Source: Terriglobus albidus
GTDB taxonomy: Bacteria; Acidobacteriota; Terriglobia; Terriglobales; Acidobacteriaceae
Assembly (NCBI RefSeq): GCF_008000815.1
Contig: NZ_CP042806.1
Span: 5,084,001 to 5,148,000, forward strand
Direction of reading: 5' to 3'
DNA length: 64,000 nucleotides
Below the pieces are notes generated by a model that did not search any database, had not been told where the DNA came from, and worked only from the letters and a program-made list of their open reading frames with translations. The translations under genes were made by a program, and so were the position numbers. Positions 29,744-57,976 of this stretch are shown piece after piece; the first letter of the stretch is position 1, and each line of letters begins with the position of its first letter.

Positions 29744-29805
29744 GCGTATTGATTGTGCGGGTTTCGCAGGGATCGAGCAAGCTCGATCATGATTGAAGAA
29801 TGGAA

Positions 29806-29884
29806 GGATTGAATAATTGAATGATTGAAACCAGCAGCTGCGGCAACCAGTTCTTCAATCATTCAATTAGCAATTATTCAATTC
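29806..29884. repeat. Gene-less palindrome related to the 14-mer repeat family
   Basis: Inverted arms AATTGAATGATTGAA (29815-29829) and TTCAATCATTCAATT (29854-29868) are perfect. Outer arms GGATTGAATAATTG and CAATTATTCAATTC extend the match with one mismatch and a 2-nt bulge. The 24-nt loop is Gln-codon-like CAGCAGCTGCGG sequence. The right end runs into the TGA stop codon of the gene at 29883-30725. It shares GAATGATTGAA with the tandem array at 18501 and the flanks of the four-helix gene. Confidence 0.85.
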
Positions 29885-52952: not shown

Positions 52953-53054
52953 AATTTTCGTGTGGGAGTCACATCCCGTATTGTTTTCTCAGCGTCTATT
53001 CGTGCATTCACGAGAAACGACCCCCAACCTAACCCCATCCCAAAAGGACGAATC

Positions 53055-53381
53055 ATGGAACTGAACGAAAACCTCCTGATGCAACCCGCCACCCACGACT
53101 TCGTACCCGAAGGCCTGCTGGCCCTCAACGCCGCCGAGATGTGGCAGGCCGCCCCCGTGACCGACGACGATGACGATGAGGATGAGGATTACGACGAAGA
53201 CGAAGACGAGGATGATGAGGACGACGACGAGGACGGCGATTACGAGGACGAAGAAGACGACGACGCCGAGGATGAGGATGACGACGAGGACGAGTACGAT
53301 GAGGACGGCGACGACGAGCCCGAGTACGAGGACTACGACGACGATGAGGAGGATGAGGAGGATGACGACGACTACGAATAG
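53055..53381 (+). CDS. Protein with extreme acidic Asp/Glu tail
   Basis: A 108-residue protein. Residues 1-36 are ordinary (MELNENLLMQPATHDFVPEG, then LLALNAAEMWQAAPVT). Residues 37-108 are nearly all Asp and Glu with some Tyr and few Gly/Ala/Pro, built from GAY/GAR codons. AAAAGGACG precedes the ATG. I do not recognise it; such tails may bind cations or basic proteins. The next gene begins 18 bp downstream on the same strand. Confidence 0.7.
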   Translation: MELNENLLMQPATHDFVPEGLLALNAAEMWQAAPVTDDDDDEDEDYDEDEDEDDEDDDEDGDYEDEEDDDAEDEDDDEDEYDEDGDDEPEYEDYDDDEEDEEDDDDYE

Positions 53382-54904: not shown

Positions 54905-56497
54905 TTAGGCGCTTACCGTGTCAGAGTGCTTTCCGCCGAGGCGGGCCGCCTTCACGTGGTCGCTGATCATCTGGATGGCGCGGCGTCCGCTTCCGGCGGC
55001 GCCCTCCTGCCAGCCCACCACGTGCGAGGTGTGGTCACCGGCGAAGTAGATGGGGCCATCGTTCTGCGTGATGGTGGCGTAGTCCGCCTTGGTGATGGCG
55101 CCGATCCATGAACCCTCATTCCACTTCACGTGCTTCCAGCCGCAGAAGACGGGCTTGGAAACCAGCTTGCCGTAGCCGGGGTGCATCTTCTCGATGGACT
55201 GACGCGACGACTCAAACTTCTCGTCCATCGACAGTTTGTTGAAGCCGTCGATCGCCTCATCCTGGTAGCCGGCGCAGATCATGCCGGGGCCATCGGAGAA
55301 GAGGTTGTTTGAGGGGTACCAGATCGGCTGCGGTCCTTTGGCCAGGAAGCTGAGGCCGCCGTAGATGTTGAAGTCCTTCTCCCAGAAGCGGGTCGAGGCT
55401 TCCCACGGCACCTTGTAGGAGCCACGGTAGGAGTCGGCAGCGCGGGAGACGGTGGCCTTTACCTCGGGCGACAGGTCCGCCTTGATCTTGTTCAGGATCG
55501 TCAGCGGCATGGCGCAGACGCAGTAGTCGGCCTCGATGGTGCGCTGCACGCCGGCCTTCTCGTAGACAACCTTCACACCCTTACCGGTCTTAGTGATCTC
55601 GGTGACCGGACAGTTGAAGTTCACGATGGGGCCGAGCGACTTGGCCAGGGCATTTGAGATCTGCTGCATGCCGTTGACCGGCTGCATCATGGTCGCCTGC
55701 CAGTCCCACTGCTCTTCGTAGAGCTCGGCGCTCCAGAAGTTGCCGTCCAGAAGCGCGTGCATCGGGATGGGCTCGCGGTTGACGATCATCTCCTGCGGGC
55801 CGGCGCCAGGATACTGGGTGACGTCGGCGCGGTCAGAGCCGGTGTACTTGTTCTTGCCGTCCAGCGGTCCCCACAGGTGCATGATGTCGGCCAGGCGCTC
55901 GCGGTCCTGCTTGGTGAGCTCGGAGTCGAGAGACCCGCCGTTCAAAGCCTTGGTCAGCAGTTCAGCCACTTCACCACGGGTGTCATTGATGACCTTGCGC
56001 TGGGTGTAGGGCTTGCCGCCGTTGACCTTGTCGTTCTGCAGCAGCGTGGAGCGGGAGGTGTTGACGCAGACCTCCATCGGCACCTTGAGCTCGCGCACAT
56101 AGTGCAGGATGGTGCCGTGCACCGAGGGGATGCGGGCGGGACCCATATTCCAGTACAGGCCGGGAGCCCAGTTGATGTTCTGCTTGGTGCCGTCGACGAA
56201 CTCAAGAACGTCGCCGCCGCGGGCCGAATAAGCACGGCCGCCGGGACGATGGCGGGCTTCCAGAACGGTAACGTTGTACCCGAGTTTACGAGCCTCGTAG
56301 GCAGTCACCAAACCGGCGACGCCGCCGCCAAGGACAACGATGCTGACACCTTTACCCGCACCGGTTGTGGCCTTAACTTGCTCAGCCTCAACTTCTTTCA
56401 TCGGCATCAGGCCGAGAGCTTGCATGGTGACAACTGCAGCGCTGAAACCGCCAGCCTGCCCTACGCGCGTAAGGAAATCGCGCCGTGTAATACCCAT
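54905..56497 (-). CDS. Tat-exported flavin amine oxidase
   Basis: A 530-residue FAD-dependent amine or L-amino-acid oxidase. A twin-arginine signal (RRDFLTRVGQ) is at residues 5-14. The dinucleotide fold VVLGGGVAGLVTAYEARKLGY near residue 54, the GG motif HRPGGRAYS, and the C-terminal GPIYFAGDHTSHVVGWQEGA are complete. It oxidises amines or amino acids to imines with hydrogen peroxide. The exported RidA gene follows 68 bp downstream on the same strand. Confidence 0.9.
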   Translation of the reverse strand: MGITRRDFLTRVGQAGGFSAAVVTMQALGLMPMKEVEAEQVKATTGAGKGVSIVVLGGGVAGLVTAYEARKLGYNVTVLEARHRPGGRAYSARGGDVLEFVDGTKQNINWAPGLYWNMGPARIPSVHGTILHYVRELKVPMEVCVNTSRSTLLQNDKVNGGKPYTQRKVINDTRGEVAELLTKALNGGSLDSELTKQDRERLADIMHLWGPLDGKNKYTGSDRADVTQYPGAGPQEMIVNREPIPMHALLDGNFWSAELYEEQWDWQATMMQPVNGMQQISNALAKSLGPIVNFNCPVTEITKTGKGVKVVYEKAGVQRTIEADYCVCAMPLTILNKIKADLSPEVKATVSRAADSYRGSYKVPWEASTRFWEKDFNIYGGLSFLAKGPQPIWYPSNNLFSDGPGMICAGYQDEAIDGFNKLSMDEKFESSRQSIEKMHPGYGKLVSKPVFCGWKHVKWNEGSWIGAITKADYATITQNDGPIYFAGDHTSHVVGWQEGAAGSGRRAIQMISDHVKAARLGGKHSDTVSA

Positions 56498-56624
56498 GGG
56501 AAAAACACTCCTTTAGTTGCGACTGACCTTGGAGATGAAGCTGGTCCCCACGCAGATGGACGAATCCCCCGACGAGGAAAACCAAGAACTGTAGCCCGAT
56601 GGAAACATCCTATAGGAATGAGGA

Positions 56625-56712
56625 CTGATTGAATAATCGAATAATTGAATCACCAGCCCGAAGGGCTGGTGATTTGATGATTGAAGGAATTGAATGATTG
56701 AATAATGGCCAC
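56625..56712. repeat. Left inverted-repeat flank of the four-helix-bundle gene
   Basis: AT-rich GATTGAATAA and ATAATTGAAT units, a hairpin CACCAGCCC-GAAG-GGGCTGGTG, then ATTGAAGGAATTGAATGATT. The core GAATGATTGAATAA at 56692-56705 is the exact inverse of 57107-57120 and equals the last 14 bases of the 16-bp array unit at 18501-19108. Confidence 0.92.
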
Positions 56713-57078
56713 TTAACCCGAGTTGGAGTTCCTCAGATAGCCGGCAAAGCCTGTGAGTTGGCGGCCGACCTCTTCGATCAGCTCCTCAAGTTGGCTGGAC
56801 AGCTGCTGATCGCCAAATTCCAATAGCCGAGCAATCGTAAGTTGAGTCTGCAGCTCGTTATTGGAGCCCCGGGCCATCACAACGTAACGATGGAAATCGG
56901 TCCGCCCTCGCGCGCTTCCTTCCGCAATATTGGAAGCAGTTGAGACGCTCGCCCGCCGCATCTGCGCAGTCAGGCCGTATAGCTCTTCTTTGGGGTAAGT
57001 CCTGGTGACACGATAGGTCAGTTCTGCGAGCTCAACAGCTCGCTGCCATACGGGCAGCTCTCGATAGGATTTCGGCAT
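56713..57078 (-). CDS. Four-helix-bundle protein (S23/23S rRNA-intervening-sequence type)
   Basis: A 121-residue all-helical protein of the family that includes the S23 proteins encoded in 23S rRNA intervening sequences and the Avd proteins of diversity-generating retroelements. Signature: SYRELPVWQRAVELAELTYR near the N-terminus, ELYGLTAQMRRASVSTASNI, then AEGSARG, and a C-terminal EEVGRQLTGFAGYL. It is not in an rRNA gene and no reverse transcriptase is nearby. Perfect 14-bp inverted repeats flank it, so it looks like a compact insertion. Its molecular role is not established. Confidence 0.92.
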   Translation of the reverse strand: MPKSYRELPVWQRAVELAELTYRVTRTYPKEELYGLTAQMRRASVSTASNIAEGSARGRTDFHRYVVMARGSNNELQTQLTIARLLEFGDQQLSSQLEELIEEVGRQLTGFAGYLRNSNSG

Positions 57079-57101
57079 TCACGAGATTCTGCCGAAAGCG
57101 A

Positions 57102-57141
57102 AGATTTTATTCAATCATTCACTCATTCCATCATTCAATTT
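57102..57141. repeat. Right inverted-repeat flank of the four-helix-bundle gene
   Basis: TTATTCAATCATTC at 57107-57120 is the exact inverse of 56692-56705; further units CATTCCATCATTCAATT follow. The repeat includes the stop codon of the nei gene (TGA read on the minus strand at 57131-57133), so the insertion edge coincides with the end of that gene. Confidence 0.92.
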
Positions 57142-57976
57142 TCTGGCATTCCGGGCACCAATACGTCGACCTCGCCTGAATTCCTTGTTTGCGCGAGAGG
57201 ATGGTGGTGCCGCAGCGGCGGCAGGGTTCTCCTGCTCGGCCGTAGACCCAGAGGCGTTCTTCGCGGTCGATGCGGCGGGTGGTGCGGCGCGGGCCGGTGA
57301 AGGTCACTATGTCGCCTCCAGCACCGTCTTTGATGTTGGCCTGCATGTAGCGTTGCGCGTGGTCGGCGAGATGCAGCATCTCTTCTTCGGTCATCGTGCT
57401 CATCTTGCGGAAGGGATGTACCTGTGCGGTAAAGCACACTTCTGACTTGTAGACATTGCCGAGCCCTGCCATTACCTGCTGATTCAGAAGGACGACAGCG
57501 ACCTCATCTTCAGGATGCGAGGCGGCTCGTGCCTTGAGACGCTCCAAGCCGGTTTGCGGCGTGAAGTCTGCGTCCAGTACATCCGGGCCGAGCTTGGTCA
57601 CAGACGTATGGCGTGCAAGCGACTGGGAGGTATGGAATTCAGCGATTGGGACATTGAACGCTACCGCCTCGAAACCGGCAACACCCAGAATGAGGCGCAT
57701 GTCTTTGCGTGGCCGCCACCAGCGCTCGCCTGGACGATAGATGTGCCAGGAGCCGCTCATCATCATGTGTGTGAGCAGGATTAGATCACCGGAGAGGTAG
57801 ATCAACAGCCACTTTCCGCGCGACTCTACCTTTTCGACAACTCGGCCGGTGATGGATGCATCGTCATGGACACGCTGCAAAGGAGCCAGTGCGGTTTCAA
57901 AGCGTGTGACCGTCTTACCGGTCAGCGCTTTAGTCAGAGCTCGTGCAGCGCGGAAGATGGTATCGCCTTCAGGCAT
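57131..57976 (-). CDS. nei: Endonuclease VIII-like DNA glycosylase (Fpg/Nei family)
   Basis: A 281-residue bifunctional DNA glycosylase/AP lyase. The catalytic N-terminus PEGDTIFRAAR (Pro2, Glu3) is intact; the helix-two-turn-helix is NQQVMAGLGNVYKSEVCF, and the C-terminal zinc finger has CRRCG and CPEC. MPEGDTI places it nearer Nei than MutM. It removes oxidised bases. It lies 12 bp downstream of lhr on the same strand, so the two are probably one repair operon. Confidence 0.93.
   Translation of the reverse strand: MPEGDTIFRAARALTKALTGKTVTRFETALAPLQRVHDDASITGRVVEKVESRGKWLLIYLSGDLILLTHMMMSGSWHIYRPGERWWRPRKDMRLILGVAGFEAVAFNVPIAEFHTSQSLARHTSVTKLGPDVLDADFTPQTGLERLKARAASHPEDEVAVVLLNQQVMAGLGNVYKSEVCFTAQVHPFRKMSTMTEEEMLHLADHAQRYMQANIKDGAGGDIVTFTGPRRTTRRIDREERLWVYGRAGEPCRRCGTTILSRKQGIQARSTYWCPECQKIE

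Follow-up and report, generated by a model that had tools for sequence, protein, structure and literature searches.

A four-helix bundle gene between inverted arms in Terriglobus albidus is probably one copy of a small IVS-like mobile unit outside rRNA

The window, by which we mean the whole 64,000-nucleotide stretch of Terriglobus albidus DNA analysed here, has a small gene between a nei gene and an amine oxidase gene on the same strand (Table 1). The ORF listing of the window gives it as a minus-strand ORF that starts with ATG. Its product is a member of PF05635 (23S_rRNA_IVP; E = 6.8e-31, 107.1 bits against a curated cut-off of 33.8) and of TIGR02436 (E = 9.1e-30, 103.1 bits against a cut-off of 24). 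The nearest solved structure is 2gsc/XCC0516 (E = 6.9e-23). The protein has a pI of 8.1 and the median for 129 family members is 8.9; members of this four-helix family are mostly basic. Against the copy in a genome of the same genus (G008) the dN/dS is 0.06, at a dS of 3.1 that is close to saturation. A weak match of the protein to the cas_csx17 profile was also seen, and elsewhere in the window an ORF on the plus strand (52962-53381) is mostly one long aspartate/glutamate run.

Table 1. Features at the four-helix locus, its neighbours and a second bracket in the window
Feature	Position	Strand	Basis
Four-helix bundle gene (PF05635 23S_rRNA_IVP / TIGR02436), 121 aa	56713..57078	-	profile and structure matches
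Gene-upstream arm, degenerate tandem 8-nt copies (TGAATGAT/TGATTGAA), overlaps nei stop	57107..57140	-	sequence; predicted RNA pairing with the other arm
Gene-downstream arm, gene-proximal block, with perfect 14-nt inverse of 57107-57120	56688..56706	-	sequence
Gene-downstream arm, distal blocks, 8-nt unit around GC hairpin (56640-56659 / 56663-56682)	56623..56687	-	sequence, fold
Whole unit (arm, gene, arm) between same-strand nei and amine oxidase genes	56623..57140	-	inverted-arm score; outer borders approximate
Fpg/Nei-type DNA glycosylase gene (nei), end inside arm	57131..57976	-	context
Flavin amine oxidase gene	54905..56497	-	context
Second bracket, gene-less, TGATTGAA arms	29789..29883	.	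borders read by eye

A preliminary description of this stretch had claimed that perfect 14-bp inverted repeats enclose the gene, that further copies of the same motif surround them and that the layout merges with the nei stop codon. All of this holds. GAATGATTGAATAA at 56692-56705 is the exact reverse complement of 57107-57120. These 14-mers are the clearest parts of two longer AT-rich arms, at 56623-56706 and 57107-57140, where an 8-nt unit, TGATTGAA, is repeated in tandem with much degeneration. The nei stop codon (TGA, 57131-57133) falls within the nei-side arm, and the flank on the amine oxidase side holds its own GC hairpin. Pairing of the flanks in the transcript had been proposed as a check, and a single fold of the gene-sense transcript with no shuffled control predicts 31 arm-arm base pairs with the ORF in the loop.

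Chance is one alternative: AT-rich, low-complexity flanks around an unremarkable gene might resemble each other for no reason. The window arms are indeed AT-rich and degenerate, and one of 2000 Markov shuffles of both flanks matches the observed arm score. However, when the same geometry is slid along the window a score above 16 is reached at 3 of 1579 positions, and all three are at the four-helix gene. A score above 14 is reached at 11 positions, eight of them at two other places. These sliding and shuffle controls, together with the multi-genome controls below, refute chance, and many other loci have GC-rich arms. We consider this explanation practically negligible.

Matched arms are found at most loci of the family. 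We took PF05635 loci from the genus of the window, from its phylum (mostly the best-scoring among the matches listed) and from other phyla. G-numbers stand for compared genomes, with G000 that of the window, and L-numbers for individual loci. Each upstream flank was locally aligned with its reverse-complemented downstream counterpart and a score above 14 was counted; the controls were shifted positions of the same geometry and not annotated genes. With lenient boundaries, where the ORF may run into an arm, 115 of 132 loci have matched inverted arms versus 35 of 1998 shifted controls, and the remaining 17 have no detectable pair. With strict boundaries it is 97 of 132 versus 29 of 2481 shifted positions. 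Left out of the 132 are L008, L010, L016 and L019 (fragments or ambiguous), L134, L152, one unlocated match and L220 (flank too short), and L385 is outside the analysed set. The 132 may include rRNA sites: one short, non-diagnostic 23S rRNA pattern matched in 4 loci. In a separate test on the genomes that hold five other loci outside the Acidobacteria and one inside, 19 of 29 loci have matched arms versus 1.35% of 812 cross-locus pairs, and 16 of 26 without the acidobacterial genome. All 11 plasmid records opened, out of 24 matched, score above 14 as well (lowest 14.5), a count that includes two near-identical records and has no shifted control. The unit appears to occur between neighbouring genes in several bacterial phyla.

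The preliminary description had also expected other copies of the gene to carry the same flanks, and here it was wrong. There are 78 distinct units among the 84 loci with a readable period, and loci within one genome also differ. Since nearly every locus has its own 7-8-nt unit, asking for the same flanks is the wrong test and asking for matched flanks is the right one. The period among the 97 strict loci is 7 in 64 and 8 in 14, and 13 show no clear period. The median arm length is 34 nt; L011 and L388 have far longer arms with many head-to-tail copies of AGTTGCC or AGCTAAA. A phage collection searched with unit DNA gave no match.

The arms can be compared with the proteins they enclose. We did this for 112 loci with a permutation test, using pairs from different genomes and different sites. 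At 60% protein identity or more (18 pairs) the mean arm similarity is 0.49 versus 0.20 when permuted, and at 50% or more (313 pairs) it is 0.245 versus 0.201; none of 2000 permutations reaches either value. At 45% or more (1153 pairs) the covariation is weak, with 100 of 2000 permutations reaching the observed value. There are 39 pairs of at least 57% identity that have no detectable flank homology, and six of them share arms, versus 0.7% of all pairs. One of these six consists of an acidobacterial and a Lyngbya copy. Exceptions exist where close proteins have different arms, namely L011 versus L006 and L013 (about 70% identity) and L017 versus L072. Judged from sequence comparison, the arms tend to go with the protein lineage rather than with the site, and this covariation suggests that the four-helix protein recognises its own arms. 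The dN/dS is 0.06-0.18 in five of eight pairs, a range that includes the window gene versus G008 with its dS of 3.1; the other three pairs are dS-saturated and give no ratio. G001 has two copies whose synonymous sites are saturated while their arms are still 94-95% identical, so within one genome the arms seem to be kept alike or homogenised.

The best evidence that the unit comes or is missing as a whole is in cyanobacterial plasmids, where several sites exist in filled and empty versions. In Trichormus variabilis plasmid C the neighbours of the four-helix gene are two genes without a known function, and a TrbI/VirB10-type gene follows directly. Six plasmids were found that have this site without the gene, and the three fetched have flanks that are about 98% identical. 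Relative to Aulosira plasmid3, plasmid C has a 428-bp insert bounded by the arms, with flanks 98.4% identical and GTAA(T) at both borders. A Scytonema copy at this site is 414 bp and has one arm two heptads shorter. L370 and L377 differ by two heptads in the left arm between near-identical plasmid flanks, so repeat number may change quickly. In a decayed copy at the Trichormus site (L376) the left arm and part of the ORF remain. Other broken or truncated copies are L016 and L010 (both in G018) and L383 (pNPM1); some keep arms, and the truncated copies suggest decay.

A second site is a Nostoc junction that is filled in pNsp_a and pC052_D. In pNsp_b, pNsp_c, pC052_B and p057_H there are only 3 nt between the same genes. 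Comparing pNsp_a or pC052_D with pNsp_c gives a 417-bp insert with TTCTA on both sides, as read by eye, and pNsp_c has a different unit one gene further along. Compared over their whole length of arm, ORF and arm, the units of Nostoc and Trichormus are 78% alike, and their sites are unrelated. The cas10|cmr3 junction is filled in a PCC 7003 plasmid and empty in pAQ6 of PCC 7002 (416 bp). A junction after an integrase gene is filled in two plasmids of one Calothrix strain and gives a filled and empty pair with a 507-bp insert. A Nostoc edaphicum plasmid is filled between nrdB and nrdA, and at a further Aulosira site the borders of the insert, about 403 bp long, are unclear. Direct border repeats of 4-5 nt are readable at two plasmid sites, and divergence blurs those that we label D, E and F. 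The neighbours of the four-helix gene are co-directional with each other in 11 of 11 plasmid contexts (L386 and L387 counted once, from an incomplete gene table), and the gene runs in the direction of both in 8 of 11. Two of the units lie inside CRISPR operons, L388 at cas6|cas4 and L390 at cas10|cmr3.

The chromosomes of the window's genus have a comparable site between sucC and sucD. These names, like pheS and pheT below, were assigned by reading the sequence and not by database match. Among 17 genus genomes the junction is filled in 3, empty in 11 with the genes overlapping at TAATG, and occupied by unrelated genes in 3; G011 and G012, which have only sucD fragments, are outside the 17. The three filled genomes have three different arm units, those of G015 being read by eye and failing the automated test. 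The same junction is also filled in genomes of two further genera, and pheS-pheT is another recurrent site. Fitting the five sucC-sucD occupants to the protein tree against the other same-site groups takes two changes: three are in one starred clade, L017 belongs to a different one, and the distant position of L007 is weakly supported. On this tree the occupants are placed in at least two supported protein clades, and the starred branches alone would be compatible with one origin. In five of six same-site groups the occupants are one side of a branch, and such one-branch groups would fit old inheritance.

At the sites we examined, arms and gene are either there together or missing together, and a filled site is the gap between one gene's stop codon and the start codon of the gene that follows on the same strand. 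Block presence and absence, paired arms and shared arms at unrelated sites together mean that arm, gene and arm are the moving unit. The filled and empty pairs in the cyanobacterial plasmids and at sucC-sucD support the preliminary suggestion of an IVS-like insertion unit whose only gene encodes the four-helix protein. One could instead see the arms as cis-acting RNA hairpins (a terminator, transcript stability or translational coupling) that arose by slippage and mirror correction beside an immobile cellular gene. The arms do abut stop codons and are predicted to pair, and for the heptamer hairpins of cyanobacteria a role in transcript stability or in translational coupling has been proposed (PMC2670836). 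However, this scenario leaves the block presence and absence, the sequence-specific amplification of arms in single genomes and the shared arms at unrelated sites unexplained, and the filled and empty pairs with near-identical flanks speak against it. We consider it very unlikely.

The window's own site is less tidy. The preliminary description looked to related genomes for an empty nei-amine oxidase locus with clean edges, and this is not what they have. Sixteen genus genomes have a full-length nei locus, and nei adjoins the amine oxidase gene in four of them (G000, G001, G008 and G018). G000 and G008 have related four-helix genes there, 76% identical and in opposite orientation, with ATTGAATG arms in one and GTTGAATG in the other. 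G001 has a different four-helix lineage with GTTGCTAG arms, beside a leftover ATTCAATC tract. G018 has no four-helix gene but keeps one tract of the TGATTGAA type, a ATTCAATC tract that is the only match of that genome to the tested 15-mer. This fits either a loss that left a solo arm or an older tract.

Arms also occur where there is no gene. The window genome has one PF05635 match and 78 matches to ATTGAATGATTGAAT with at most 1 mismatch, compared with 0 for the reversed pattern. These 15-mer matches overlap within arrays and form 39 clusters, of which 18 have both orientations. All 18 of these end with a reverse copy and 17 start with a forward copy. The ATTGAATGATTGAAT family is abundant in 4 of 19 genus genomes (G000, G001, G008, G010), and G013 and G018 have one match each. 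For the arm that flanks the genes of G001 we counted 62 matches in that genome, 20-29 in the three related ones and 0 in the other 15. G029 itself has 194 matches to the arm of its gene; among the phylum genomes two more have 8 and 5, and 146 of 149 have 0. The AGTCGTC arm is less private: G139, its source, has 126 matches, but G069 has 108 and eight more genomes have some, several of these with a non-zero control. A de novo scan, with N excluded (41 candidates in G054 were runs of N and were dropped), yielded 52 brackets with tandem arms across 700 kb from 7 PF05635-positive genomes and 0 across 1.01 Mb from 13 genomes without PF05635. This sample is small and has several close relatives; its positive contigs, except that of G000, were known from earlier matches and its negative contigs are mostly arbitrary. 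The brackets are in 5 of the 7 positive genomes, with none in the 100 kb sampled of the other two, G000 included. Their arms resemble the four-helix arms of their own genome more than expected by chance (p = 0.0015), though many match none of the compared arms. In the genomes tested, arms of the same sequence have been amplified genome-wide as gene-less brackets.

The preliminary view of the four-helix gene as the unit's cargo must be amended accordingly. The gene does lie within matched arms, but the same arms also exist without it as dispersed brackets. A tblastn search (E up to 1) for four-helix remnants in gene-less brackets, run over 60 loci of G000, G001, G008 and G010, returned the window gene and three matches with E of 0.3-0.9 that we took as chance. 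The interiors of the brackets L159, L160 and L172 are about 300-400 nt and have other palindromic-looking repeats and no four-helix match. We rejected arm polarity as proof of a link between arms and gene. The gene-upstream arm is G-rich at four-helix loci (86 versus 7, with 4 ties), but gene-less brackets have the same inward polarity, as in the 18 mixed clusters of G000. In the de novo set the polarity is weaker (39 G>C versus 11 C>G).

The brackets raise the question of whether the arms belong to the unit at all. They could be host repeats, REP- or STRR-like, with the gene inserting into or being kept in dispersed brackets that were already there. Gene-less brackets with the same arms far outnumber genes in G000, bracket polarity is equal with or without the gene, and G018 has its arm-like tract and no gene. 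However, the empty plasmid sites that we label A, B and F and the empty sucC-sucD junctions have no arm; arms and gene arrive together. The tendency of the arms to track the protein lineage at unrelated sites also argues against host repeats. We therefore hold the host-repeat explanation to be unlikely and keep the arms in the unit.

It is worth considering what moves the unit. No transposase was recognised in it; the only gene recognised is the four-helix gene, which matches no catalytic family. In one scenario the unit moves with the four-helix protein as a passenger or as a regulator, and the hairpins are moved by an enzyme of the host or another resident, such as a Y1/RAYT transposase or a reverse transcriptase acting in trans. 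In its favour are the abundance of gene-less brackets and the lack of a match between the protein and any family that has a known catalytic domain. RVT_1 was not detected in 12 of 17 PF05635-positive genomes nor in 3 of 3 PF05635-negative ones (15 of 20, some of them drafts). The RVT_1-negative genomes include G000, G001, G008, G010 and G029, all of which have abundant arms. The data therefore do not require a reverse transcriptase, and we regard one acting in trans as unsupported. The covariation of arms and protein also argues for recognition by the protein itself and against a passenger. On balance the passenger scenario is possible but doubtful.

Other systems of small repeats are like the present units in some respects. 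REP/BIME elements are tagged palindromes served by a Y1 (RAYT) transposase. The likeness is in the many small palindromic non-autonomous copies with a rare associated gene, but the present arms are tandem heptads or octads and the gene encodes a four-helix protein. Insertion sequences and MITEs have inverted ends, short border repeats and gene-less derivatives. The present unit shares the inverted ends and the gene-less derivatives, and the direct repeats at two plasmid sites may be target-site duplications. However, it has no recognised transposase and its end sequence varies from copy to copy. The Avd protein of diversity-generating retroelements, by the account in PMC10053308, belongs to the same four-helix superfamily as the window protein and partners a reverse transcriptase and template/variable repeats. 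The window protein is below the cut-offs of the bAvd and Avd profiles, and no RVT_1 was found in G000.

The closest likeness in build is to the intervening sequences (IVSs) of 23S rRNA genes, for which we rely on the sections of PMC4990558 consulted. The Coxiella IVS is 428 nt long and has a 28-bp terminal stem; GACAGAT heptamers in tandem directly precede its S23 ORF, and their number varies among strains. Known IVSs are most commonly in helices 9, 25 or 45 of 23S rRNA, and their sporadic distribution is attributed to horizontal transfer. S23/IVP proteins have no known function by this account, which cites Lin 2006 for a solved relative that is a pentamer of four-helix bundles. Our plasmid records annotate the family as 'S23 ribosomal protein', 'four helix bundle protein' or hypothetical. 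A lone S23/IVP ORF, ends that pair as a long stem, a similar length and heptamers beside the ORF are thus common to both. The window unit differs in that it lies between nei and amine oxidase genes and not inside a 23S rRNA gene. Matched arms at unrelated operon junctions and gene-less brackets are features of the present units that are absent from those sections.

The arms themselves are like two sets of described repeats. The STRRs of cyanobacteria are mostly repeats of 7 bp that can fold into hairpins; they are found between hupS and hupL, and no function is assigned to them in the consulted sections of PMC2670836. The TAACTGA heptamers of Beggiatoaceae have a patchy spread whose mechanism is not evident, and a repeat-binding protein as mobile element has been raised for them (PMC4679880). 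Both resemble the present arms as tandem units of about 7 nt between genes, some of them hairpins, some inside operons, with a patchy spread that looks horizontal. By the STRR type of definition, the window genome has an 8-nt unit with its 78 matches in 39 clusters, and the period is 7 or 8 in 78 of the 97 strict loci. The difference is that these sections of the two papers name no agent or linked gene, while the present arms are tied to a four-helix gene. In a search of an open-access library we found no link of heptamer repeats to four-helix genes. The unit would be IVS-like by its build, outside rRNA by its place and a candidate source of heptamer repeats.

We argue that the feature in the window is one copy of a small mobile IVS-like unit outside rRNA, made of arm, gene and inverted arm and about 0.4-0.5 kb long, and we give this a probability of roughly 0.75. 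The unit is probably tied to the genome-wide short repeats, whose origin is unexplained. A route for its movement can be proposed. In RNA, folding predicts that the arms pair into one long stem whose loop holds the ORF, as in the 23S rRNA IVSs. The mostly basic and probably pentameric protein would bind the repeats of its own arms, either as an RNA stem or as single-stranded DNA. It may then help host enzymes to copy and insert the unit and its gene-less derivatives, with the chemistry done by those enzymes. Stop-start junctions are transcribed and may tolerate a looped-out ORF, and in that they would be like the rRNA loops that house IVSs. Insertion there would be cheap for the host, since with the stem the ORF could be looped out or removed by RNase III.

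A broader proposal is tentative, and we put it somewhat short of even odds. In it there is a widespread class of elements in which a non-enzymatic four-helix pentamer recognises its own ever-changing heptad arms, kept matched by concerted change, and moves itself and gene-less brackets into operon junctions by means of hairpins and host enzymes. Such a class would be the source of the heptamer repeats in cyanobacteria and other phyla, and the rRNA IVSs would be a special case of it.

Units of this kind in CRISPR operons could pass for CRISPR accessory genes. The question raised is how a unit of about 430 bp without a recognisable transposase moves, and natural filled and empty pairs are now at hand for direct tests. 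Three separate puzzles, the rRNA IVSs, the free-standing S23 genes and the heptamer repeats (STRR and TAACTGA), would be joined. The S23/IVP proteins would gain a concrete biology as proteins of mobile units in operon junctions.
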